From a virus, in the IMG/VR virus record IMGVR_UViG_3300032304_000826, positions 38,348 to 102,347 of that record: a stretch of DNA of 64,000 bases; one strand, written 5' to 3'. The translations under genes and the position numbers were made by a program. This document shows, piece by piece, positions 8,614-44,080 of this stretch (the first letter of the stretch is position 1; each line of letters opens with the position of its first letter). The notes under the pieces are model-generated. The model saw only the letters and a list, made by a program, of their open reading frames with translations, did no database searches and was not told where the DNA came from.

Positions 8614-10692
8614 TTACCCCCAGTTTAAGTTAGCGGAGCCTAGTACGGTCCATGCGCTAGAAATACGAACTAGTGTAAATGTGAATACATCAATACGTCC
8701 AGCAACACTTGTTGGGGTTGGGGCCGCTGCCGCAGTCCATTTAATAGTTTGAGATGTTCCCGCAATAGTTAATGCGCTTGGAATATAGCCAGTTGCACCT
8801 TGGGTAACAAAAACGTTAATGGTCATAATCTTATTGTTATCAGTAGGCACGTTTGTAAGAGCCACTGTAAAGTTTGCAGAAGGTGCGCTAGCAATCCAGT
8901 AGATGTTACCTGTAGACCAATCGCAAGCTGCTGAGTTAGAAGTAATAGTTGTTGCTACTAATGCTTCACGCATTTCTTGAATGTCAACTGTTCCGCTTAG
9001 TGATACTAAACCCGATGCGGTTAGTCCACCAACCTGTAGATCCGCATAAGCAGCCCCAGCTTCCGCAAAGTTTACAGTTGTAGTTGGTTTAGTTGTAGCG
9101 TCCTTAAAGATTTTAAATACGCCATCAGAAGCGTCACGAACTGCACCGCCGTAGTATCTACGGGCAGCTACCGAGCTACTGCCTGACGCAGCAGCTGAAG
9201 ATACGTTTGCATTGGTTTTAGCATATGTAAATGTTGTTGAGGTAGGCACTGCAATAATTGAGTAGGTACCGTTAAATGTAGCATCTACGCCAGTTATAAC
9301 AGCCACATCTCCTGCACGATAGTTATGGCCAGCAGAGGTAGTAAGAGTTGCCACATTTGAAGTTAACGCTTTGTTAGTAATTGTGCTAACTAGCGCTGCA
9401 ATTGTACTTGCGTACTCAACTACTAAGCCTTCGTCAACAGCATCTGCTTGATTGCTTATACCAGAGAAGATCATAGGCGCAACAACTGCTAGGTTATCCG
9501 TAGTAGTAGCTCCTCCACCAAATGTGAGGTTACCAACGATAGACATATTACCTTCTACGTTGACGCTGCCTTGAATACCAACACCACCGACTACTGTTAA
9601 AGCACCTGTTGTAGATGAGGTAGATGGGGTATCAATTTCAATGTGTACGTTTACATCTGGGGTAATTGACATTTGCTCATTGTCAGAAGCTAAGCCTCCA
9701 GCAGCAAAAATAAGCTTGTTCTCACTACCTTTGTCACCAGTAGCAAATACAAGGTTACCCTTACCAGTAGTTCCTACAGGAGCTTCTAGGAAAATGTAGC
9801 CGTCGTTTGCGCCAGTAATTGTAAACTCGGGGTCGTTAAAGTTAGAGGATGTAATACCCATGTCAATGTAGCCAGCAAAGTCTGTACCATTATTTGCATA
9901 AGCAATGTAATCAGTAGATGAGTTTGTACCATTTCCTGAGTTTCTAAATGCAATTTGTGCAAAGTCATCATCTGCATCAATAGCATATACAGCAGCTGCG
10001 TTGGTATATCCAGGAATAGTGGTTATTGTTCCTACAGTTGCTTGTGAAGCAATATTTCCTGCAGTCTTATCAAAAGTAAAGGTATTTAAAGTAGGCGTAG
10101 CGGTAATTTCATATGTGCCATCAAACGCAGCGTCTGCTGGGCTAAGGGCAATAGTTACGAACTGAAACGGGGCAAATCCGTGTGCGGTAGATGTAGTAAT
10201 AGTCGCTACGTTAGAGGTCAAAGATTTTGTTTGAGCAGTCTTAGTAACAGTACCTAAAGTTTCAGCATCTGTACGTGCTCCAGGACCTACGTATAGCTCT
10301 CCCGCAGTTGAGCCAACATCAAGGTCTCCGGTTACTCCAAGAGTTCCAAAAGAGTTAGACCAAGAGGCAGCAGTTCCGTCTGTCTTTAGAAACTTACCGG
10401 CGTTGCCTGTTTGTGTTGGGACTTGGCTTACAGTTGCAAACTGAAATGCAGAGCCAGTTGTCTGTAAGAATTGACCGTTTGTTCCTGCTGTAGGATCTGT
10501 GTACCCATCAATCATCTTAGACCAGTAGGCTGTATCTGTTGGGGCGTTGCCCGCGGTAGCGCCAGTGTTGATATAGGCGTAAAGGTTATTAGTGTACTTA
10601 ACTACATCGTTAAGCTGGTATGTAGTGGCACCGCTATAGGTTCCCTTATAGGTAAAGCGAAGCTTACCTAAGTTAAAAATCTGAGCAGCCAT
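8614..10692 (-). CDS. Large tail fibre protein, copy 1
   Basis: The 692 aa protein starts MAAQIFNLGKLRFTYKGTY with one copy of the 50-aa repeat. It then has the beta module (AHGFAPFQFVTIALSP, later GHNYRAGDVAVITGVD), the shared block NLVFATGDKG to GALTVVGGVGI, and the C-terminal domain VTQGATGYIPS to VLGSANLNWG. It is homologous to 3325-6222 over the centre and C-terminus and is shorter because five N-terminal repeats are missing. It is likely a second fibre in the same appendage system or a receptor variant. Confidence 0.85.
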   Translation of the reverse strand: MAAQIFNLGKLRFTYKGTYSGATTYQLNDVVKYTNNLYAYINTGATAGNAPTDTAYWSKMIDGYTDPTAGTNGQFLQTTGSAFQFATVSQVPTQTGNAGKFLKTDGTAASWSNSFGTLGVTGDLDVGSTAGELYVGPGARTDAETLGTVTKTAQTKSLTSNVATITTSTAHGFAPFQFVTIALSPADAAFDGTYEITATPTLNTFTFDKTAGNIASQATVGTITTIPGYTNAAAVYAIDADDDFAQIAFRNSGNGTNSSTDYIAYANNGTDFAGYIDMGITSSNFNDPEFTITGANDGYIFLEAPVGTTGKGNLVFATGDKGSENKLIFAAGGLASDNEQMSITPDVNVHIEIDTPSTSSTTGALTVVGGVGIQGSVNVEGNMSIVGNLTFGGGATTTDNLAVVAPMIFSGISNQADAVDEGLVVEYASTIAALVSTITNKALTSNVATLTTSAGHNYRAGDVAVITGVDATFNGTYSIIAVPTSTTFTYAKTNANVSSAAASGSSSVAARRYYGGAVRDASDGVFKIFKDATTKPTTTVNFAEAGAAYADLQVGGLTASGLVSLSGTVDIQEMREALVATTITSNSAACDWSTGNIYWIASAPSANFTVALTNVPTDNNKIMTINVFVTQGATGYIPSALTIAGTSQTIKWTAAAAPTPTSVAGRIDVFTFTLVRISSAWTVLGSANLNWG

Positions 10693-32457: not shown

Positions 32458-33024
32458 TTACGCCTCTTGTATGTATGTGTGGATCTCTCCACCTGAATAG
32501 ATGTCGTGCTTTATAGATATTTCAATTGCACGCTGCAAAGCCTTTTCGGCGGCCTGGGGTGTACTGATCTTTGAATAGTTGAGGGCCTCGAGGGCTCCAA
32601 GTGCGATATCGCCACCACTACCAGCGTAGTAGACTCGACGGGCTTCTCTATCCCAAGAGTAATCATTAAAGATCGGGTAGATAGTTCCTCTTATAGATAC
32701 AATGAGGTTAGAGTCTTGGAATGCTGCATCGCCGTCTTCTTTACCTTCATAGCCTGCTTCTTGAAAAGCTTTACGCATGCTAGGTATAAACTTCTTAGTC
32801 ATGAAGACATCTAGCTCTTCTGCGCTGCGAGGCTTAGGTGGCTTCCAACCAAACTGTGTAATGTTTCCACCGCGGGATGCTCCGGATACTGCAATGAGTA
32901 CTCCGTTGTTGTTGACAACTTTAGATGTAGCAAGTTCCATATAACGTCCGTCTTCATCGGATGCACGAGAGTCGCAACCAATTACTGACCAACCATCTCC
33001 TTGTATTGCTACAAGTGTTGTCAT
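32458..33024 (-). CDS. Ntn hydrolase of the proteasome beta/HslV type
   Basis: The 188 aa protein starts MTTLVAIQGDGWSVIGCDSR. Removal of Met would expose Thr as the N-terminal nucleophile, with Asp18 and Lys35 in the places of proteasome Asp17 and Lys33. A later YYAGSGGDIALGALEAL matches the conserved Gly-Ser-Gly turn. AAGGGAGAG precedes the ATG. Host Actinobacteria have 20S proteasomes, so it might act as a phage protease, a capsid-maturation enzyme or a decoy subunit; these are inferences. It lies beside Hsp20. Confidence 0.85.
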   Translation of the reverse strand: MTTLVAIQGDGWSVIGCDSRASDEDGRYMELATSKVVNNNGVLIAVSGASRGGNITQFGWKPPKPRSAEELDVFMTKKFIPSMRKAFQEAGYEGKEDGDAAFQDSNLIVSIRGTIYPIFNDYSWDREARRVYYAGSGGDIALGALEALNYSKISTPQAAEKALQRAIEISIKHDIYSGGEIHTYIQEA

Positions 33025-33143: not shown

Positions 33144-33698
33144 CTACAGTATATCTTTATCTTTTTTAGTACGTGTGATAGTGGTGTTGTATTCGTGCTG
33201 ATGAGGCTTGGTAGTCCAATCCTTCTCAGGGAACTGCTTCTTGACCGTCAGTGGGGGTGTATCGCCCTTAATGGTGATCTTCTTGACCCTCTGCTCCTCA
33301 GGAAGCTCCCTGGAGAGTGATACCGTCAAGATACCGTCCTTGAATGATGCTCCGTCTACAACCACATACTCTGCTAATGCGAAGTTCTGCTTGAATGCCC
33401 GTCCACCGATTCCTCGATGTAGGAACTCATTATTAGTCTCTTCCCCACGATTTCCCTCGATTACCAGGGTTGACGGTGGTTGGACCTCGACTGTTATGTC
33501 TTTTAGTGTAAATCCAGCTAGAGCGACCTCAATTTTAAAATTATCTTCATTTACCTTGATAATGTTATATGGAGGATAGCTAGTAGCTCTTCCGCTCATA
33601 TTCTCGAGCATTTCCATTTGTCGATCAAAACCGACCATCCACGCCCTAAATGGGAATAGATCCTTGTTATTACTTGTATTTCCGGCATAGGCCATCAT
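33144..33698 (-). CDS. Hsp20 small heat-shock protein
   Basis: The protein has 184 aa from the ATG at 33698, which has AAGGAGAAG in front; an upstream in-frame start lacks a ribosome binding site. The alpha-crystallin domain shows YNIIKVNEDNFKIEVALAGF, KDITVEVQPPSTLVIEGNRG, RGIGGRAFKQNFALAEYV and FKDGILTVSLSREL. It resembles bacterial IbpA and the Hsp20 proteins of T4-like cyanophages. It binds unfolding proteins as an ATP-independent chaperone, perhaps during virion assembly. It is the first gene of the leftward late block. Confidence 0.92.
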   Translation of the reverse strand: MMAYAGNTSNNKDLFPFRAWMVGFDRQMEMLENMSGRATSYPPYNIIKVNEDNFKIEVALAGFTLKDITVEVQPPSTLVIEGNRGEETNNEFLHRGIGGRAFKQNFALAEYVVVDGASFKDGILTVSLSRELPEEQRVKKITIKGDTPPLTVKKQFPEKDWTTKPHQHEYNTTITRTKKDKDIL

Positions 33699-33977
33699 TG
33701 TACTTCTCCTTAGTTTCAGCGAGTTAAAAGCACTCCCTATCGGCAAGTGCTCCCAAAGTGTAGCAGCCACTGCCAAAGATTTTGTAATCTAAGTATTCCC
33801 CGATTTTTCCTCCCAAAATAACGAATTGTGACATGCAGCACACAGGCCGGGCCACTGCCTAGCTCAATATGGTCTTGGTAGTCAGTCTCACCTGGCGGCC
33901 AACTGAGGCAAAAAGGCTTAAAGGTGCGGGGGGGTCAAAAGAAGCACTGAACTGAATTTAGTTAGAATTAATGTGAG

Positions 33978-34710: not shown

Positions 34711-35083
34711 TACTCTCTCGGCTACTGCCTTCCTAGCCGCATAGCCTGTGTCAGTCCGACCAGGTTATCGGCTAGGGGGTAGTGCTGTTATCAGGGTATT
34801 AGGGGAAGTCAAGGGCTAAGCCAATAGTCCTTGGCCTCTCAACTCTACACGGTGCTACCTTCCCCGTACCGTGTAGGGCTGAGGGGTTCATACCCCTTAC
34901 ATCAGAAGATACGGCGATACCTGTGGGAATCAGGAGACTGTTAGGCAATCCCGAAGTACACCCTAACCGCTAATGGCACGAAGATAACTACTCTGTTCTG
35001 CCTTCCACAATGGGGGGTGGGTATGCCTATGTGTACCAACACAAACCGTATGCCTGCCCCCCATTTCTCCACCCAGTTAGTCT
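34711..35083 (+). ncRNA. Long structured non-coding leader
   Basis: No convincing coding frame is present in about 370 bases. Several stems are visible: CGGCTA / TAGCCG (34719-34739), whose 3' arm CTAGCCG can instead pair with CGGCTAG at 34769; CTACACGGT / ACCGTGTAG around 34845-34877; a GGGG / CCCC hairpin near 34884; and the long hairpin at 35010-35064. The density of stems suggests a structured RNA that precedes the next element and gene. Confidence 0.55.
35010..35064 (+). ncRNA. 17-bp hairpin with a CAACACAAAC motif in the loop
   Basis: The 5' arm ATGGGGGGTGGGTATGC pairs with GTATGCCTGCCCCCCAT over all 17 positions (four of them G-U). The 21-nt loop contains the conserved 10-mer CAACACAAAC (35037-35046). 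An inner GTGT / ACAC pairing is also possible. The wobble pairs only make sense in RNA on the plus strand. Confidence 0.7.
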
Positions 35084-35175
35084 GTGAAAGGCGCATCTGT
35101 TCATCTGTAGGGAGGGTCCTTATAGATCATTGAGTGCTATCAAGCAGGTGCGCCTCTCACTCTCTACCTGAGAGT
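35084..35175 (+). promoter_or_regulatory. Structured leader element, copy A
   Basis: The closing stem pairs GTGAAAGGCGCATCTG (35084-35099) with CAGGTGCGCCTCTCAC (35145-35160): 14 Watson-Crick pairs, one wobble and one A-C mismatch. A 6-bp hairpin ACTCTC-TACCT-GAGAGT (35159-35175) follows, then AGGAGG and the ATG at 35194. The same layout with compensatory changes occurs at 35599-35795. It is probably a translation or processing control element. Confidence 0.72.
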
Positions 35176-35193
35176 ATGAACTAGGAGGTTGCT

Positions 35194-35382
35194 ATGTCCC
35201 ACATAGTTTCAGACGATACAACAGCCCGCCTTATTCCGGGCACAATCGGTACGAAGACAGTCACCATTCCTACCGAAACTTTCTACGAGGTAGTCAATGC
35301 TCTCCGCGATGGTTGCGGATGTGCTAAGTGCTTGGACAATGCCAACACTCTCCTTGTCCACGGGTATACACCTAGGAGGTAA
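35194..35382 (+). CDS. Small Cys-containing early protein, 62 aa
   Basis: The start is set by CTAGGAGG. The sequence has TARLIPGTIGTKTVTIPTET and then EVVNALRDGCGCAKCLDNAN, a C-x-C-x2-C cluster. It has no membrane segment and no recognised family. It is the first gene behind structured leader A. Confidence 0.6.
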   Translation: MSHIVSDDTTARLIPGTIGTKTVTIPTETFYEVVNALRDGCGCAKCLDNANTLLVHGYTPRR

Positions 35383-35384
35383 CT

Positions 35385-35591
35385 ATGGACTGTACCGTCT
35401 GTGGTAACCCCGTCCTACCTGGCAGATGGGATGCTGGTTATCACTATTGCTTTGATCCAAACTGTGCCCACGAATTGCGTGAGCGACAGAAGAAATACGC
35501 CCTGATTCTTATGCCCAAGCAGGGCTTTACCTATGTAGAGGTTGATAGTCCTCACCTGTTAGATGGCAAGTCATCAGGTAGGTCATCTTAG
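35385..35591 (+). CDS. Small zinc-finger-like protein, 68 aa
   Basis: MDCTVCGNPVLPGRWDAGYH followed by YCFDPNCAHELR gives a C-x2-C ... C-x4-C zinc site. The rest is short and basic to neutral. AGGAGG precedes the ATG by a few bases, within the preceding stop region. The likely role is nucleic-acid or protein binding; unknown. Confidence 0.6.
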   Translation: MDCTVCGNPVLPGRWDAGYHYCFDPNCAHELRERQKKYALILMPKQGFTYVEVDSPHLLDGKSSGRSS

Positions 35592-35598
35592 ATAGATA

Positions 35599-35795
35599 GT
35601 GGAAGGCACATCAAGCACGGACACCATCCAGTTGGTAAGTATTGTTAGAGGCATTTGATGTGGTCTCGTCTAACTTCCGCTTGGCGCAGTTATGTATGTA
35701 ATATTCACATCTGCATACATTGATTTACTCGTCCCCCTGAAAACGGCCGTATAAAGTCCCTCGCTTGGTGTGCCTCTCACCCTCTATCTGAGGGT
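35599..35795 (+). promoter_or_regulatory. Structured leader element, copy B
   Basis: GTGGAAGGCACATCAAGC (35599-35616) pairs with GCTTGGTGTGCCTCTCAC (35763-35780) and encloses 146 nt. The hairpin ACCCTC-TATCT-GAGGGT follows at 35779-35795, then CTAGGAGG and the ATG at 35815. Relative to copy A there are four double, pair-preserving changes. The 5' arm (CACATCAA, 35607-35614) can also pair with TTGATGTG at 35655-35662, so two exclusive folds exist. An inverted repeat ATGTATG / CATACAT (35692-35720) lies inside. Confidence 0.75.
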
Positions 35796-35814
35796 AATAA
35801 CTAGGAGGAAGAAG

Positions 35815-35976
35815 ATGGAAAAAGAATGTGCAGTAATCCATTGCACCAATACCAATCTCGTCTATAGCGGTACTGATGCATTCCAGTTAGGCGGTATCCC
35901 CACCGAAATGTATTGCCGTCCTTGTGCGATCGCTTACTATGTGATCAGCGAAACAATGAAGGCCATCAATGCCTGA
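35815..35976 (+). CDS. Small Cys-rich early protein, 53 aa
   Basis: The ATG at 35815 follows CTAGGAGGAAGAAG. The sequence MEKECAVIHCTNTNLVYSGT, with YCRPCAIAYYVIS later, gives C-x4-C ... C-x2-C, likely one zinc site. Its stop overlaps the start of the BldD-like gene, so the two are co-translated. Confidence 0.6.
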   Translation: MEKECAVIHCTNTNLVYSGTDAFQLGGIPTEMYCRPCAIAYYVISETMKAINA

Positions 35977-36274
35977 GCGTGCCAACACAAACACGCCCAC
36001 CTACGCCAACATCTGCGCTAGGTTGCGCTATGTACGCCAACTCAAGGGCTGGACGCTTGATGAGGCCGCACAAAAGTCTAATGGCAAGCACAAAGCCAAT
36101 GTAATCGGTTCCTATGAACGCGGACAGCGGTCAATCTCAGTCAAGAAACTCATTGAGCTGGCCCGCCTGTATGACGTACCTGTTACCGATTTCTTTGGCA
36201 TCCCCGATCAAAATGAAAAGTCACAGGCACTCATTGACCTGTTGATTGACCGCCTACACGCACAGAAGGGATAA
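35969..36274 (+). CDS. BldD-like helix-turn-helix regulator
   Basis: The 101 aa protein has an XRE-type HTH (RLRYVRQLKGWTLDEAAQKS) followed by NVIGSYERGQRSISVKKLIE and LARLYDVPVTDFFGIP. The GSYERG...V-K-L-ELA-Y-VPV run is characteristic of the N-terminal DNA-binding domain of actinobacterial BldD. It lacks the c-di-GMP-binding C-terminal domain. It probably controls phage or host promoters. A CAACACAAAC copy lies in its first codons. Confidence 0.85.
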   Translation: MPERANTNTPTYANICARLRYVRQLKGWTLDEAAQKSNGKHKANVIGSYERGQRSISVKKLIELARLYDVPVTDFFGIPDQNEKSQALIDLLIDRLHAQKG

Positions 36275-36276
36275 CA

Positions 36277-36525
36277 ATGGACAGACCAATACCGATTGGC
36301 AAAGATCAAGTCAATCATTACTACATCTCCACCGTATTTCTAGGTGAGGACTACAAGCCCCGCGCATACGAGACCATGGTCTTTGAGAATGACGAGGCTA
36401 TCTACGAAGCCCGCTATGAACTTGAATGGGAAGCAAAGATTGGACACATGCACGCTATACATCTAGCGCGTAATGACAAGTTCCTTCCCCGCGAGTCTGC
36501 GCCTCCAACAGCGCAACAACTTTAA
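36277..36525 (+). CDS. Hypothetical early protein, 82 aa
   Basis: The protein starts MDRPIPIGKDQVNHYYISTV. It is acidic, with YEARYELEWEAKIGHMHAIH and a Pro-rich end (LPRESAPPTAQQL). It begins 3 bp after the BldD-like gene, so it lies in the same operon. No family is recognised. Confidence 0.6.
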   Translation: MDRPIPIGKDQVNHYYISTVFLGEDYKPRAYETMVFENDEAIYEARYELEWEAKIGHMHAIHLARNDKFLPRESAPPTAQQL

Positions 36526-36534
36526 ATGGATGGA

Positions 36535-36773
36535 GGAAGGCAGAGATAGGGTCTGAGCATCTCTACCTGATTCTGCAAGCTGCGCTTCAGGTTCTCCGCC
36601 ACGTATGTATCAAATGGAGAGTGAGCCCCGTGGGCAAATGTTAGAGAGAATGTGCCTACTTGTGCGTGTGACTCCATGAGAAGATTTCTGCAGTGCATTG
36701 CAGCACGCTTCTTTGGTACGTGAAACTGATTCGTTACAGCCTATCTCTGTCTTCCCCTGCCCATTTGGACAGG
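36535..36773 (+). promoter_or_regulatory. Structured leader element, copy C (related layout)
   Basis: GGAAGGCAGAGATAGG (36535-36550) pairs with CCTATCTCTGTCTTCC (36740-36755) over 16 bp (one G-U) and encloses 189 nt of non-coding sequence. A small hairpin CCTG ... CAGG (36756-36773) follows, then AGGGAGG and the ATG at 36792. The 5' arm AGAGAT can also pair locally with ATCTCT (36559-36564). The layout equals copies A and B, but the sequence is more distant. Confidence 0.62.
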
Positions 36774-38234: not shown

Positions 38235-38732
38235 ATGGGAGCAAAAACAAACTCTCTCAAAATCAGGCGACTTGACCTCCTTGAAGCACTTGAGGAACGC
38301 TATGCCGCGTTGACAAAACAAAAAGATGAGTATGAAAAGTTAGACAAAGAGTATAACCTCGCATCTACTAAATACGACAAAGATGTGAAAGCATACGAAA
38401 AGCGAATGGATGACTTCTTACGTGGCTGCACAGTTGGCGGAGAAGTTCATTGGTCTTCAAGCAGTCGTAGATGGGGTAGTGACGAACAGTATTACAGAGT
38501 AGTTTCTGAGGTGCATGTTCCCCACAAAGCTGTGGTTAAAGCTATTGGACCTGAACCTGAACGTCCAACAAGCACACCTACTCCTTACTTTCTACGATCA
38601 CGCATGGGTAGAGGCTATGCAGTAGAGCCTTCAGTCTATGAGTCTGTTTACCAAGCAATCCAGTTGCTACATATGTCAGATGATGAGACCGTCTCAGCAT
38701 CTATGTATCAATTAGCATTGGAAGTATTGTAA
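38235..38732 (+). CDS. Coiled-coil early protein, 165 aa
   Basis: The N-terminal half is a coiled coil (LLEALEERYAALTKQKDEYE, KLDKEYNLASTKYDKDVKAY). The C-terminal half is beta-rich with GCTVGGEVHWSSSSRRWGSD and RSRMGRGYAVEPSVYESVYQ. It overlaps the next gene by 1 base. No family is recognised; a scaffold or DNA/protein-binding role is possible. Confidence 0.62.
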   Translation: MGAKTNSLKIRRLDLLEALEERYAALTKQKDEYEKLDKEYNLASTKYDKDVKAYEKRMDDFLRGCTVGGEVHWSSSSRRWGSDEQYYRVVSEVHVPHKAVVKAIGPEPERPTSTPTPYFLRSRMGRGYAVEPSVYESVYQAIQLLHMSDDETVSASMYQLALEVL

Positions 38733-40600: not shown

Positions 40601-40641
40601 GCGTGAGTGGCACACTTTGAGGTTCGAGTCCTCTACACGCA
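40601..40641 (+). pseudogene. tRNA remnant or minimal tRNA-like RNA
   Basis: A 5' GCGTG can pair with CACGC near the 3' end (40636-40640). Between them is a T-arm-like GAGG-TTCGAGT-CCTC with the conserved TTCGA loop, followed by TACACGCA. The D- and anticodon arms are missing; only about 15 nt lie in their place. It is likely the relic of a tRNA gene reduced by deletion. Confidence 0.55.
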
Positions 40642-40699
40642 CGGCGGGCGACTACATTGGGTAGTTGCCTTAGCTGCAAAGAAAGTGGAAGGACAGATT

Positions 40700-42109
40700 A
40701 TGAAAATAGCTGTTTTCGTAGAAACGTATACGCCGACTATGGGAGCTGATCATCGTCAAGTAATGATGATTCCTCATAACGACACAGTCCGTGTCTTTTC
40801 TCGTTTGAGCGATGGCAATAAAGGTTATGGCAATCGCTGGGATGAATCAGACATAGAAACTGTAGTGAACGCTATGGACTCAAGTGAAACCATCACTTGT
40901 ATTCCATCAGGTGTTCGACTCACTGCTAAAGATATTGAGGCGCTTGACCTTAAAGGTTATGCACCAGTCCTCATGACTAAAGCGGTCAACGCACACCTTA
41001 AGTCACTACCGTTTGATGAAGAGACAGACGCTGCAGAGCGTATCTGTGCTCTTTATCAAGACGTATCTGTTCAGAGTTCTAGCCTTGAAGATCTAATCAT
41101 TGATCTTCGTAGCCAGGCTCCGGCATCACCGTTCCTTCCGCAGTCTGCTTCAACACAAACATCCACGGCCAATAACCTTGATGAACTACCTCGTGTAGCA
41201 CTCGCAAGTATCCCCCCAATGGATCGCGCTAAAGCCTATATCAGTCGTGACATCGTAGGTATTCAAGACCTCGAAGTTTACGACAAGGCTCGCGCTAACA
41301 AGTTTGATGTGCTTATCTACGGGCCAACCGGTCCAGGTAAGACATCATCCGTAGTTGCATGGGCTGCATCACGGAAGCTACGTATGGCAACTGTATCTGG
41401 TAACGCTGCACTCGAACCAAGCCAACTCATCGGTAAGTATATTCCCGATGGCAAAGGTGGCTTTGTATGGATTGACGGCCCAGTAACAGACGTTGTACGT
41501 AATGGCGGTGTTCTATGTCTTGATGAGGTTAACTTCATCAGTCCTAAGATCTATACCGTCTTGTATTCGTTGCTTGATGACCGCCGTTGTTTAATTCTTC
41601 TCGACCATATGGGCGAGACTGTAGAGGCTCATCCAGACCTCACAATCTTTGCGACTATGAATCCAAACTACATTGGCACTACGCCTTTGAACTTTGCATT
41701 CCGCAATCGCTATGTCGTACAAATCCCTTGGGACTATGACGATAAGGTCGAAGACAAGCTTGTGAAGTCACAGGCACTCAAGATTCTAAAGAATCAATTG
41801 CGTGCTGAGGCTAACAAGGGTGAGTTCGAGACACCAATCTCAACTAACATGCTGATGGAGTTCGAAAAGCTCGTCAAGGTGTTCAGCTTTGAGTTTGCAG
41901 TTGAGAACTTCATTGCCCACTTCGAACTAGAAGAACAAGACAAGGTGCGCCTTGTATTCACTACACATGAATACAATCTGAAGTCTGATTTTGAACTAGT
42001 TGAAATACTAGATCAAGATAAGGGTGAAGATAGTGCTGGCCTCGGAGAAGGCATTATTGCCGAGGTTGAGAACTGGTTGACATCAAACAACACTCCAACT
42101 AATCCATAA
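40700..42109 (+). CDS. MoxR/CobS-type AAA+ ATPase
   Basis: The protein has 469 aa from the ATG at 40700, which has GGAAGGA before it; the upstream frame runs through the tRNA remnant and is rejected. The first 190 residues are phage-specific. The AAA+ domain has Walker A GPTGPGKT (208-215), SGNAALEPSQLIGKYIPDGK, Walker B GVLCLDEVNF (about 267-276), and the sensor region TIFATMNPNYIGTTPLNFAF with RNR. CobS/NorQ/MoxR ATPases work with a VWA partner to insert metals or remodel proteins; that partner is the next gene. Confidence 0.88.
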   Translation: MKIAVFVETYTPTMGADHRQVMMIPHNDTVRVFSRLSDGNKGYGNRWDESDIETVVNAMDSSETITCIPSGVRLTAKDIEALDLKGYAPVLMTKAVNAHLKSLPFDEETDAAERICALYQDVSVQSSSLEDLIIDLRSQAPASPFLPQSASTQTSTANNLDELPRVALASIPPMDRAKAYISRDIVGIQDLEVYDKARANKFDVLIYGPTGPGKTSSVVAWAASRKLRMATVSGNAALEPSQLIGKYIPDGKGGFVWIDGPVTDVVRNGGVLCLDEVNFISPKIYTVLYSLLDDRRCLILLDHMGETVEAHPDLTIFATMNPNYIGTTPLNFAFRNRYVVQIPWDYDDKVEDKLVKSQALKILKNQLRAEANKGEFETPISTNMLMEFEKLVKVFSFEFAVENFIAHFELEEQDKVRLVFTTHEYNLKSDFELVEILDQDKGEDSAGLGEGIIAEVENWLTSNNTPTNP

Positions 42110-42118
42110 GGAGTAATC

Positions 42119-44080
42119 ATGGGATACCACGATGAGATAGACACTGGGTATCACGGTGAGACTCGAACAGAAGAGAAACAAAAGCGGGCTCTACGTCTAG
42201 GCACACTTGCAAGAGTGTATCAAGGCGCAGACCGAATTCTTACTGGCGATCCACTAGTGGTAAACATAGTTGACAGCGGACCAGCACCTGCTTGGTCCGA
42301 TGGCGCATCCATAACTCTCAATGCTGAATACATCAATGAGATGGACTTGGAAACGCTAGTACAAATTAACGGCCTCAATTACCATGAGCTAGCCCATCAT
42401 TTGTACACACCACGTAAAGGTACTCCGTTAGTACAGTGGGTTATCGAGAATGATCTATTCCAATCGTTCAATATATTGGAAGATCAACGTATCGATACCT
42501 TGCTGTGTGCACGTTATCCATCAATCATGCCATTCTTGGAAGCTACAGTCTTACGGTATCTAGCCGATAAGCCTGAAGAAGCCATTGGTAATTACTTGGT
42601 GGTGCGTGGTCGTAAGTATCTACCAGTTGAGGTACGGCAAGGCTTTAGAGATATCTTTATAAGGCCTGACCTAATACCAGCCATCTGCAGAATAGTTGAT
42701 GAGTATCGAGTGCTCGCATTCCCTAGGGATTATGCGCGAGCGCAAGAACTTATCAAACAACTGCAAGATGAAGTATTAGTTCACTTGCCTATCCCTTGTT
42801 CAGGCGGCATATCACAATGCGGCCATAGGTCTCCTATACAAAAAGGCAGACCAGAACCTGGCAAGATGCAGGAGTATGACTCAAAGAGAGCTAAAGGAAT
42901 GGGCGTCAGTGAAGACGAGTACGTACCTAGAACCTCTCAAGAGAAGCAACAGCTTGATGAATTGCTAGATGAAGTAGACAGAATGTCAACTGCTCCCGGC
43001 AATGTTAATGACAATGAAGATGGAGAAGATCCTTTAGGTAAAGATCCTCTTGCTGATCTAAACAATCAGATTAAAACATCTCAAGATGCGTTAGCCAAGC
43101 GTGAGGCTTCAATATACTCAACACCATCTGTTGGTCAAGGACATATAGATAGTGTGGGAGGAATCCCAGATGATCTACAAATTACGCTAAACAATGCCCT
43201 GAACAAGGTGCATGAGCGTAAGGATGTTCTAGCCGATGTTAAGCGCAAGCAAAGCATTGTAATCGGTGGTGATGATAAAGGCGGAGAAACTGGTAGGCCT
43301 GGCAAGTTTGATAAGGCAGACGTACCTAGTGCCGCAATGGTTGCTTATCGTAAGTTCGCACACGAACTTCAAAAGCTTCGTGATGACGCAGAACCATTCT
43401 GGGTTAAGGAGATGCCTTCCGGCAAACTCAATGTACCTAGACTTATGCGTGGCGAGGTTGAGGTAGGCAAAGCCTTTGACCGCTGGACTGAACAAGACGA
43501 CAGCACAGATATCGAAGCAATCATCTGCGTTGACCGTTCAGGCTCAATGGGCAGTGGCAATAACGATCAGATGGCATCCATTGCCTGCTGGACTATCAAG
43601 CGTGCCTTAGAGCATATAGATTGTCCAGTAACAGTGTATGCATTTGACGACAAGACTGAGGTGGCTTACTCTCGTACAGAGAAAGCAGACAAGACTCAGT
43701 TTAAATTCATCTATGGCAGCGGTGGTACAGAACCATACGAGTCTCTAATCCTAGCGGAAAAGACTCTTATGTCCTCTACCCGTAGCAATAAGATGTTGTT
43801 CATCATTACTGATGGTGTGTTCAACACAAACAAAAATGATGAAGTCATAGCGCGTATGGCAAAACGAGGAATCCTAACCTCTCTTGTACTAATCATGAGA
43901 ACCAAGGACTACTTAGATGCTAAACGATCCAATGAGGAGGCCATTGCCGAAGGCAGGTCTGCACGTTGGGAGCTAAGACATGGGGCAGAAATATTCGGTA
44001 ACGTTAATAGCGCTGCCGATCTAGTCCCCCTAGCCCGTGCAATCGTAACCGGAGCAATCCGCAAGAAATCAAGGAGGTAG
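42119..44080 (+). CDS. VWA-domain protein, CobT-like partner of the ATPase
   Basis: The 653 aa protein has an HELAHH motif at residues 89-94 in an otherwise helical N-terminal region, with NILEDQRID downstream, recalling zinc peptidases. A charged middle region (DELLDEVDRMSTAPGNVNDN) leads to the C-terminal VWA domain with the MIDAS motif DRSGSMGSG (about 472-480), a conserved Thr/Gly element (YGSGGTEPYESL) and IITDGVFNTN. The gap to the ATPase gene is 9 bp. The pair resembles CobS-CobT or MoxR-VWA systems. Confidence 0.87.
   Translation: MGYHDEIDTGYHGETRTEEKQKRALRLGTLARVYQGADRILTGDPLVVNIVDSGPAPAWSDGASITLNAEYINEMDLETLVQINGLNYHELAHHLYTPRKGTPLVQWVIENDLFQSFNILEDQRIDTLLCARYPSIMPFLEATVLRYLADKPEEAIGNYLVVRGRKYLPVEVRQGFRDIFIRPDLIPAICRIVDEYRVLAFPRDYARAQELIKQLQDEVLVHLPIPCSGGISQCGHRSPIQKGRPEPGKMQEYDSKRAKGMGVSEDEYVPRTSQEKQQLDELLDEVDRMSTAPGNVNDNEDGEDPLGKDPLADLNNQIKTSQDALAKREASIYSTPSVGQGHIDSVGGIPDDLQITLNNALNKVHERKDVLADVKRKQSIVIGGDDKGGETGRPGKFDKADVPSAAMVAYRKFAHELQKLRDDAEPFWVKEMPSGKLNVPRLMRGEVEVGKAFDRWTEQDDSTDIEAIICVDRSGSMGSGNNDQMASIACWTIKRALEHIDCPVTVYAFDDKTEVAYSRTEKADKTQFKFIYGSGGTEPYESLILAEKTLMSSTRSNKMLFIITDGVFNTNKNDEVIARMAKRGILTSLVLIMRTKDYLDAKRSNEEAIAEGRSARWELRHGAEIFGNVNSAADLVPLARAIVTGAIRKKSRR

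Follow-up and report, generated by a model that had tools for sequence, protein, structure and literature searches.

In Cluster K mycobacteriophages, SAS/ESAS elements combine a 13-bp start-associated sequence (SAS) with 17-bp imperfect inverted repeats that enclose a spacer of 4-14 bp; according to Pope et al. (2011), departures in the ESAS arms do not support RNA base-pairing (PMC3203893). A later reading found SigA-like promoters within the ESAS of Adephagia (PMC11373665), and similarly placed SAS/ESAS-like motifs occur in Cluster EF Microbacterium phages (PMC7302621). Of the published layouts, that of the Cluster K ESAS comes closest to the element described here, and the predicted phage RNAs of large surveys may include it without a name. 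The element, which we call the frame, consists of a closing stem (P1), whose two arms lie on either side of an interior, and a hairpin (P2) at its 3' end. Like ESAS, it belongs to a probable actinophage, lies in several copies in the early/non-structural region and has small genes of unknown function downstream; its 17-bp arms likewise flank a variable spacer and are followed by CTAGGAGG or another Shine-Dalgarno stretch and a start codon. Unlike ESAS, it lacks the 13-bp SAS GGGATAGGAGCCC, in place of which the window has CTAGGAGGTTGCT / CTAGGAGGAAGAA and other phages have other Shine-Dalgarno stretches; its interiors measure 24-235 nt and are of many unrelated kinds; its arms covary (18 of 23 pairs with changes on both sides); it has a constant second hairpin, P2; and the sequences are unrelated. 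Moreover, a consensus scan, which divergent promoters could escape, found neither an intrinsic terminator nor a sigma-70-like (SigA-like) promoter in either copy in the window. Because three ESAS features, namely the short spacer, the non-compensating arms and the sequence, failed here, we do not class the frame as an ESAS.

Three other described systems resemble the frame in part. RNase III processing stalks, such as the sites in the early mRNA of phage T7 and the flanking stems of bacterial 16S and 23S rRNA, are also long helices formed from distant arms within a polycistronic transcript, and they enclose or separate an RNA unit; in contrast to these, the outer sequence of the frame is conserved and includes a fixed A.C mismatch, its interiors are exchangeable, and we infer its processing from helix length, position and analogy. 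Y RNAs, the ligands of Ro60/Rsr, are closed by a conserved, flawed stem between their 5' and 3' ends and have variable loops, a plan that recurs in the frame; the frame differs in its location in mRNA gaps, in interiors that are unrelated in sequence, in the absence of a TROVE protein from nine phage records and in having no Rfam match. Integron attC sites and MITEs share with the frame imperfect inverted repeats, a variable middle and the exchange of units between genomes, but the frame occupies one locus per phage in one orientation, shows RNA-type covariation and a wobble bias, and has no associated integrase that we could find. The frame also differs from a riboswitch, in that its interiors swap freely upstream of one gene family, no terminator follows P2 and the Shine-Dalgarno sequence is uncovered.

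The locus and its two frames

The window, i.e., the whole stretch of 64,000 nucleotides that was analysed, runs from base 38348 to base 102347 of a virus record that is 102,347 bases long, and the phages that carry frames have genomes of approximately 100 kb. Domain searches identified genes for a terminase, an SPP1-type portal, a capsid protein, a class II-like ribonucleotide reductase, WhiB, Hsp20 and a proteasome-like protein. Among isolates, the closest terminases are those of Streptomyces phages, e.g., BRock (52% identical); because of this relationship and the WhiB gene, the host of the frame-bearing phages is likely an actinobacterium. The two copies in the window, A and B, sit shortly past the start of a rightward gene block, among small ORFs with unusually long structured gaps. 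Their features are as follows.

35084-35100, +, copy A, P1 5' arm GTGAAAGGCGCATCTGT; 16 of 17 bases paired with 35144-35160
35101-35143, +, copy A, interior of type 1, 43 nt; an 11-bp internal hairpin, then ATTGAGTGC
35144-35160, +, copy A, P1 3' arm GCAGGTGCGCCTCTCAC; pairs with 35084-35100
35159-35175, +, copy A, hairpin P2, ACTCTC-TACCT-GAGAGT; 2 nt in common with P1; P2 pairs covary among 27 frames
35181-35188, +, copy A, Shine-Dalgarno-like CTAGGAGG, serving the ORF 3' of copy A
35194-35382, +, ORF for a 62-aa Cys-containing protein (GCGCAKC) downstream of copy A; start codon at 35194
35599-35615, +, copy B, P1 5' arm GTGGAAGGCACATCAAG; 16 of 17 bases paired with 35764-35780
35616-35763, +, copy B, interior of type 2, 148 nt; 85% identical to the interior of L010+8230, in another gene context
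35764-35780, +, copy B, P1 3' arm CTTGGTGTGCCTCTCAC; pairs with 35599-35615
35779-35795, +, copy B, hairpin P2, ACCCTC-TATCT-GAGGGT; L004 and L005 have an identical P2 at this locus, with different interiors
35801-35808, +, copy B, Shine-Dalgarno-like CTAGGAGG, serving the ORF 3' of copy B
35815-35976, +, 53-aa Cys-rich protein downstream of copy B, with homologues in L004, L005 and L017; start codon at 35815

P1 is 17 bp long in both copies, with 16 standard pairs in each; in both, bp 5 is an A.C mismatch and bp 13 is U.G. Between A and B, both sides change at bp 10 (G-C to A-U), bp 15 (U-A to A-U), bp 16 (G-C to A-U) and bp 17, and one P2 pair changes from U-A to C-G. The preliminary description of this DNA had noted the common plan of closing stem, 6-bp hairpin and start codon, the mismatch and the U-G pair kept at the same places, and double changes at three stem pairs and one hairpin pair; all of this can be read directly from the two copies, with bp 17 as a further doubly changed pair. 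It had also given the enclosed loops as 45 and 146 nt; the difference in size stands, with the lengths becoming 43 and 148 nt once the stem is counted as 17 bp. Its view of A and B as two versions of one leader RNA does not hold, as only P1 and P2 are common to them and the interiors are unrelated and exchangeable. In every instance in which P2 is defined, it starts 2 nt inside the end of P1 (the common 'AC'), so that the two outermost pairs of P1 compete with the two pairs at the base of P2. On the sense strand, copy A has a predicted fold of -43.1 kcal/mol (z = -5.1), versus -32.4 kcal/mol on the antisense strand, and that of copy B has -61.9 kcal/mol (z = -2.6).

Relatives of the frame and controls for chance

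Relatives were gathered by protein searches with the neighbouring genes, by a DNA pattern of the 3' arm and hairpin and by a DNA pattern of both arms. A loose descriptor (three mismatches per arm) gave 68 matches in reversed sequence and, being too permissive, was dropped for a tight set. The curated family, part of which was gathered using a pairing criterion, comprises 31 copies (27 distinct frames) on 18 phage contigs, here given L numbers; one further contig is identical to L010 at the frame locus. The structure first seen in two copies therefore has further homologues, in which the pairing is kept. Each record holds one to three copies, all at one locus and all in gene orientation.

Two controls bear on chance. 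A 12-base pattern of the 3' arm matched 15 of 16 whole records, once or twice each (25 matches in total, versus 1 with the reversed pattern), and its matches in phage records always fell at the frame locus. The partner test, which selects on the 3' arm alone and not on the 5' arm and is thus an unbiased control, found the upstream arm for all 27 independent 3'-arm matches in phage loci, with 14-16 of 17 positions paired; with shuffled upstream sequence, this score was reached in 0 of 200 trials for 26 of the matches and in 1.5% of trials for the remaining one. Outside this group, a search of 84,980 prokaryote genomes yielded no relative of the frame: its one match to the 3' arm and hairpin fell within a gene of an archaeon and lacked the partner arm (0.73), and we rejected it as a cellular frame and attribute it to chance. 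By DNA similarity, INPHARED contained no relative of the element among isolated phages, and Streptomyces phage BRock had no convincing frame (8 loose matches, versus 2-3 in shuffles). At the gathering threshold, Rfam 15 matched a single tRNA in the window and only tRNAs in nine related loci, and the element region gave no match at E<=5; these searches excluded a known RNA family for the frame, in agreement with the earlier impression that no such family had been described.

Covariation and strand

Covariation was assessed on a tree of the 27 distinct frames with a purpose-written, R-scape-like test, in which 2000 simulated null alignments keep each column's own number and kind of substitutions. 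Mean pairing was 0.934 versus 0.72 in the null (maximum 0.816), the number of cells with changes on both sides was 81 versus a null mean of 20 (maximum 50), and 18 of 23 base pairs showed such changes versus a null mean of 10 (maximum 16). The null maximum is thus exceeded on all three measures, and together with the partner test this rules out chance pairing of the arms. Taken singly, the strongest pairs in P1 are bp 9, 14, 15 and 17 and those in P2, when counted inward, the fourth and fifth. The outer part of P1 is nearly invariant (GUGRAAG / CUCUCAC), and its inner part covaries (RYRCAY NNN); bp 5 is A.C in 24 of 27 frames, and bp 7 and 12 are invariant. With bp 4, 5 and 17 left out, G.U pairs outnumber A.C pairs by 27 to 4 (p = 3e-5), which indicates selection on RNA of the coding strand rather than on double-stranded DNA or the other strand. 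Judged by these substitution patterns, the frame is a selected RNA structure, as the preliminary description had concluded from A and B.

Exchange of the interiors

The frames enclose about 20 types of interior, 24-235 nt in length, that have no detectable similarity to one another and assort independently of the downstream gene. Seven copies before gene family 3 hold six interior types, and four copies before gene family 1 hold four. Conversely, the same type recurs in differing contexts with an identity of 0.76-0.98, versus mostly 0.55-0.65 for the flanks: the 148-nt interior of copy B is found in L010 before a different gene (85% identity), a 156-nt type is common to L024 and L029 (76%) and a 36-nt type to L005 and L028 (83%). 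The type 1 interior of copy A is also framed in L004 and L007 (the first copy of each) and in L005 (the second copy).

The window, L004 and L005 represent the three closest phages. Between the window and L005 at locus 1, the upstream 150 nt are identical at 0.95 and the downstream sequence at 0.97, whereas the interiors reach 0.49, against a shuffled expectation of 0.52. The corresponding values for L004 versus L005 at locus 2 are 0.89 upstream, 0.46 in the interior and 0.90 downstream, and L008 and L009 have 0.93 upstream and 0.40 in the interior. The inner half of the P1 arms moves with the interior, whereas the outer GTGRAAG/CTCTCAC, P2 and the gene stay unchanged. Since near-identical phages differ solely within P1, the exchange unit is bounded by P1; on this comparison of sequences, P1 delimits an exchangeable RNA cassette that is swapped as a unit at fixed genomic positions.

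Certain interiors carry structure of their own. The hairpin of type 3 varies across phages by compensatory changes (GCGG/CCGC, GCTG/CAGC, GCAA/TTGC, CCTG/CAGG) and keeps a constant tail, GTAAAGATARTCC; the same module of hairpin and GTAAAGATARTCC also occurs by itself in several other closing stems (L006:7885-7925, L008:7940-7980 and the minus strand of L029 at about 3720-3650). The z-scores for folding of the interior alone are mixed, and the free energy of several interiors is no better than that of shuffled sequence, so that some may not be independent folded RNAs. A search of the viral collection found the copy B interior only within frames, and the two interiors that were sought free-standing outside frames were not found there.

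Two observations concern the arrangement of frames. On the minus strand of L029 (positions 9039-9712 of the reverse complement), three frames stand in a row, with interiors of 157, 45 and 41 nt, and two of them abut directly. In L007, L008, L009, L010, L017 and L024, a CCCCGCG(A)ATTTT-like stretch lies past the preceding stop codon, just 5' of the frames or of a ~280-nt RNA described below; this stretch is a possible exchange boundary.

Downstream genes

P1 and the start codon are 27-40 nt apart in most copies, and a Shine-Dalgarno sequence directly follows P2. The downstream proteins are small, mostly Cys-rich and fall into at least 13 families. The 62-aa protein after copy A matched no Pfam or PHROGs family. 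Each homologue of the 53-aa protein in L004, L005 and L017 is preceded by the frame, and the interiors are all different. The description as a leader RNA before small Cys-rich proteins is borne out in most copies; in L006, L008 and L029, however, a second RNA module stands between the frame and the start codon, and the second copy of L010 is followed by the ~280-nt RNA and has no ORF for 399 nt. Because these copies precede another structured RNA, 'leader' is usually, not always, the right word, and the element is a module of an RNA-rich intergenic locus. P2 leaves the Shine-Dalgarno sequence uncovered and is followed by no U-tract, so that there is no obvious switch. A riboswitch reading was rejected, as neither a conserved aptamer tied to one gene class nor a switching expression platform was found.

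Proposed role of the frame and alternative explanations

We tentatively favour the reading that the constant frame of P1 and P2 is a processing or insulation scaffold for the exchangeable RNA modules, which would be released as cargo by cleavage of the RNase III type, although we rate this reading as somewhat short of probable. In the polycistronic transcript, P1 would fold as a near-perfect double helix and insulate the module from the mRNA. P1 would also probably be cleaved by a host enzyme of the RNase III type, which is specific for double strands. The interior would thereby become a small structured RNA in its own right, and the downstream mRNA would begin with P2, a hairpin protecting its 5' end just ahead of the ribosome-binding site. 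The frame-bearing phages have no RNase III gene, so a host enzyme would be needed. The invariant outer part of P1 and the fixed A.C mismatch exceed the needs of a generic RNase III substrate and could equally constitute a protein-binding site. The modules would be variable cargo, perhaps directed against host or competitor functions, which would explain the rapid exchange of interiors.

A simpler alternative, which we consider rather unlikely yet the strongest competitor, is a purely cis-acting leader, in which P1 and P2 tune the translation or stability of the mRNA for the downstream small protein, as a 5' stabilising hairpin, a ribosome standby site or the binding site of a phage protein, possibly one of the small zinc-ribbon-like proteins, and in which the interior is a tolerated spacer or sensor domain. 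The distance of 27-40 nt from P1 to the start codon in most copies, the good Shine-Dalgarno sequence, the small and Cys-rich character of most downstream proteins, the invariance of the outer P1 and the retention of P2 at the downstream locus when the interior swaps are all consistent with such a leader. A spacer would not be expected to have covarying hairpins of its own, however, nor to be conserved between distant phages as the 148-nt (85%) and 156-nt (76%) interiors are; frame and interior are tied to no single gene among at least 13 downstream families, copies in L006, L008, L029 and L010 precede another RNA module instead of a start codon, and P2 neither hides the Shine-Dalgarno sequence nor precedes a U-tract. 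The clean swap of P1-bounded units between otherwise near-identical loci, the outer 7 bp invariant at both ends and the gene-cassette-like surroundings would also suit a mobile DNA cassette that moves as DNA, the arms being terminal inverted repeats (MITE-like) or recombination half-sites (attC-like). We regard this as unlikely, since arms that vary with matching changes would not be needed if a single enzyme recognised the repeat in trans; the wobble pairs fit the sense RNA (27 versus 4), P2 covaries though it lies outside the exchanged unit, and the one to three copies per genome are confined to this locus in gene orientation rather than dispersed in either orientation. No recombinase is linked to the element, and ordinary phage recombination over short conserved arms would give the same picture.

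Two further explanations carry much less weight. In a Y-RNA-like scaffold, an RNA-binding protein, of the Ro/TROVE type or another, might dock on P1 with its fixed mismatch, and the interior might be an effector domain; Y RNAs pair their ends around just such a conserved flawed stem with variable loops, and the remote relative BRock (terminase 52% identical) encodes a TROVE-domain protein. Nevertheless, the TROVE domain (PF05731) was found in none of the nine frame-bearing phage records searched, in a search that matched the control and BRock, and BRock itself is without a clear frame, which makes this explanation improbable. Least probable, to a degree that we hardly entertain it, are operator or promoter repeats acting in DNA, as in ESAS of Cluster K mycobacteriophages, which have a similar layout of about 17-bp inverted repeats 5' of a start-associated sequence in the early region (PMC3203893, PMC12699233): here, the interiors of 24-235 nt and the compensating arms stand against the 4-14 bp and non-compensating arms of ESAS (PMC3203893), and the absence of a sigma-70-like promoter from A and B stands against the SigA-like promoters in the Adephagia ESAS (PMC11373665).

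Taken further, the scaffold reading might make the locus an RNA-cassette system, the equivalent in RNA of gene-cassette exchange, in which the frame carries a constantly changing stock of unrelated structured RNAs that are released from the early transcript as effectors, e.g., decoys or inhibitors against the host or rival phages; we hold this with less confidence than the scaffold itself. The discovery of structured RNAs usually relies on a conserved core; here, the core varies and the frame alone is kept, so that standard motif finding would tend to miss such elements. Were the interiors released as effectors, the locus would supply about 20 new small phage RNAs, and the exchange of cassettes at the RNA level could be tested on it. 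Should the frame serve the downstream mRNA alone, it would still be an RNA element backed by covariation, to set beside the start-associated inverted repeats of actinophages, which are as yet unexplained.

Other structured RNAs and genes near the frames

Immediately before copy A, a 360-nt intergenic stretch (window 34721-35080; -160 kcal/mol) contains several long hairpins and is 96-97% identical in L004 and L005. Within it, 34838-34900 holds a 17-bp stem and an adjacent hairpin on the same plan as P1 and P2, and this hairpin, GGGGTTCATACCCC, resembles a tRNA T-arm. Further downstream, a 243-nt intergenic RNA (window 36524-36766) has 27-nt closing arms that are 81% complementary, a predicted fold of -85.7 kcal/mol and 89-90% conservation in L004 and L005; the inner arms, GGAAGGCAGAGATAGG/CCTATCTCTGTCTTCC, look like those of a divergent frame.

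The ~280-nt RNA occurs at L006:8402-8681, L007:8519-8800, L008:8243-8521, L009:8244-8522, L010:8441-8721 and L019:2984-3272, and it is conserved and structured: RNAalifold predicts 69 pairs, 28 of them changed on both sides, a count made without a null comparison. In L019, this RNA is enclosed by a true frame; it has no Rfam match.

Among the protein-coding genes, an HTH_3 regulator (PF01381; window 35969-36274) directly follows the copy B gene and overlaps its end by a few bases. A proteasome-subunit-like protein (PF00227, E 8e-7) is encoded on the minus strand at window 32458-33024 and adjoins the Hsp20 gene (33144-33776). In the record of Streptomyces phage BRock, L061:1751-3322 corresponds to gp191, the TROVE (Ro60-type) protein. 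Finally, window 40607-44080 encodes an AAA_5 (MoxR-like) ATPase followed by a VWA-domain protein, a pairing as in chelatase-like pairs.
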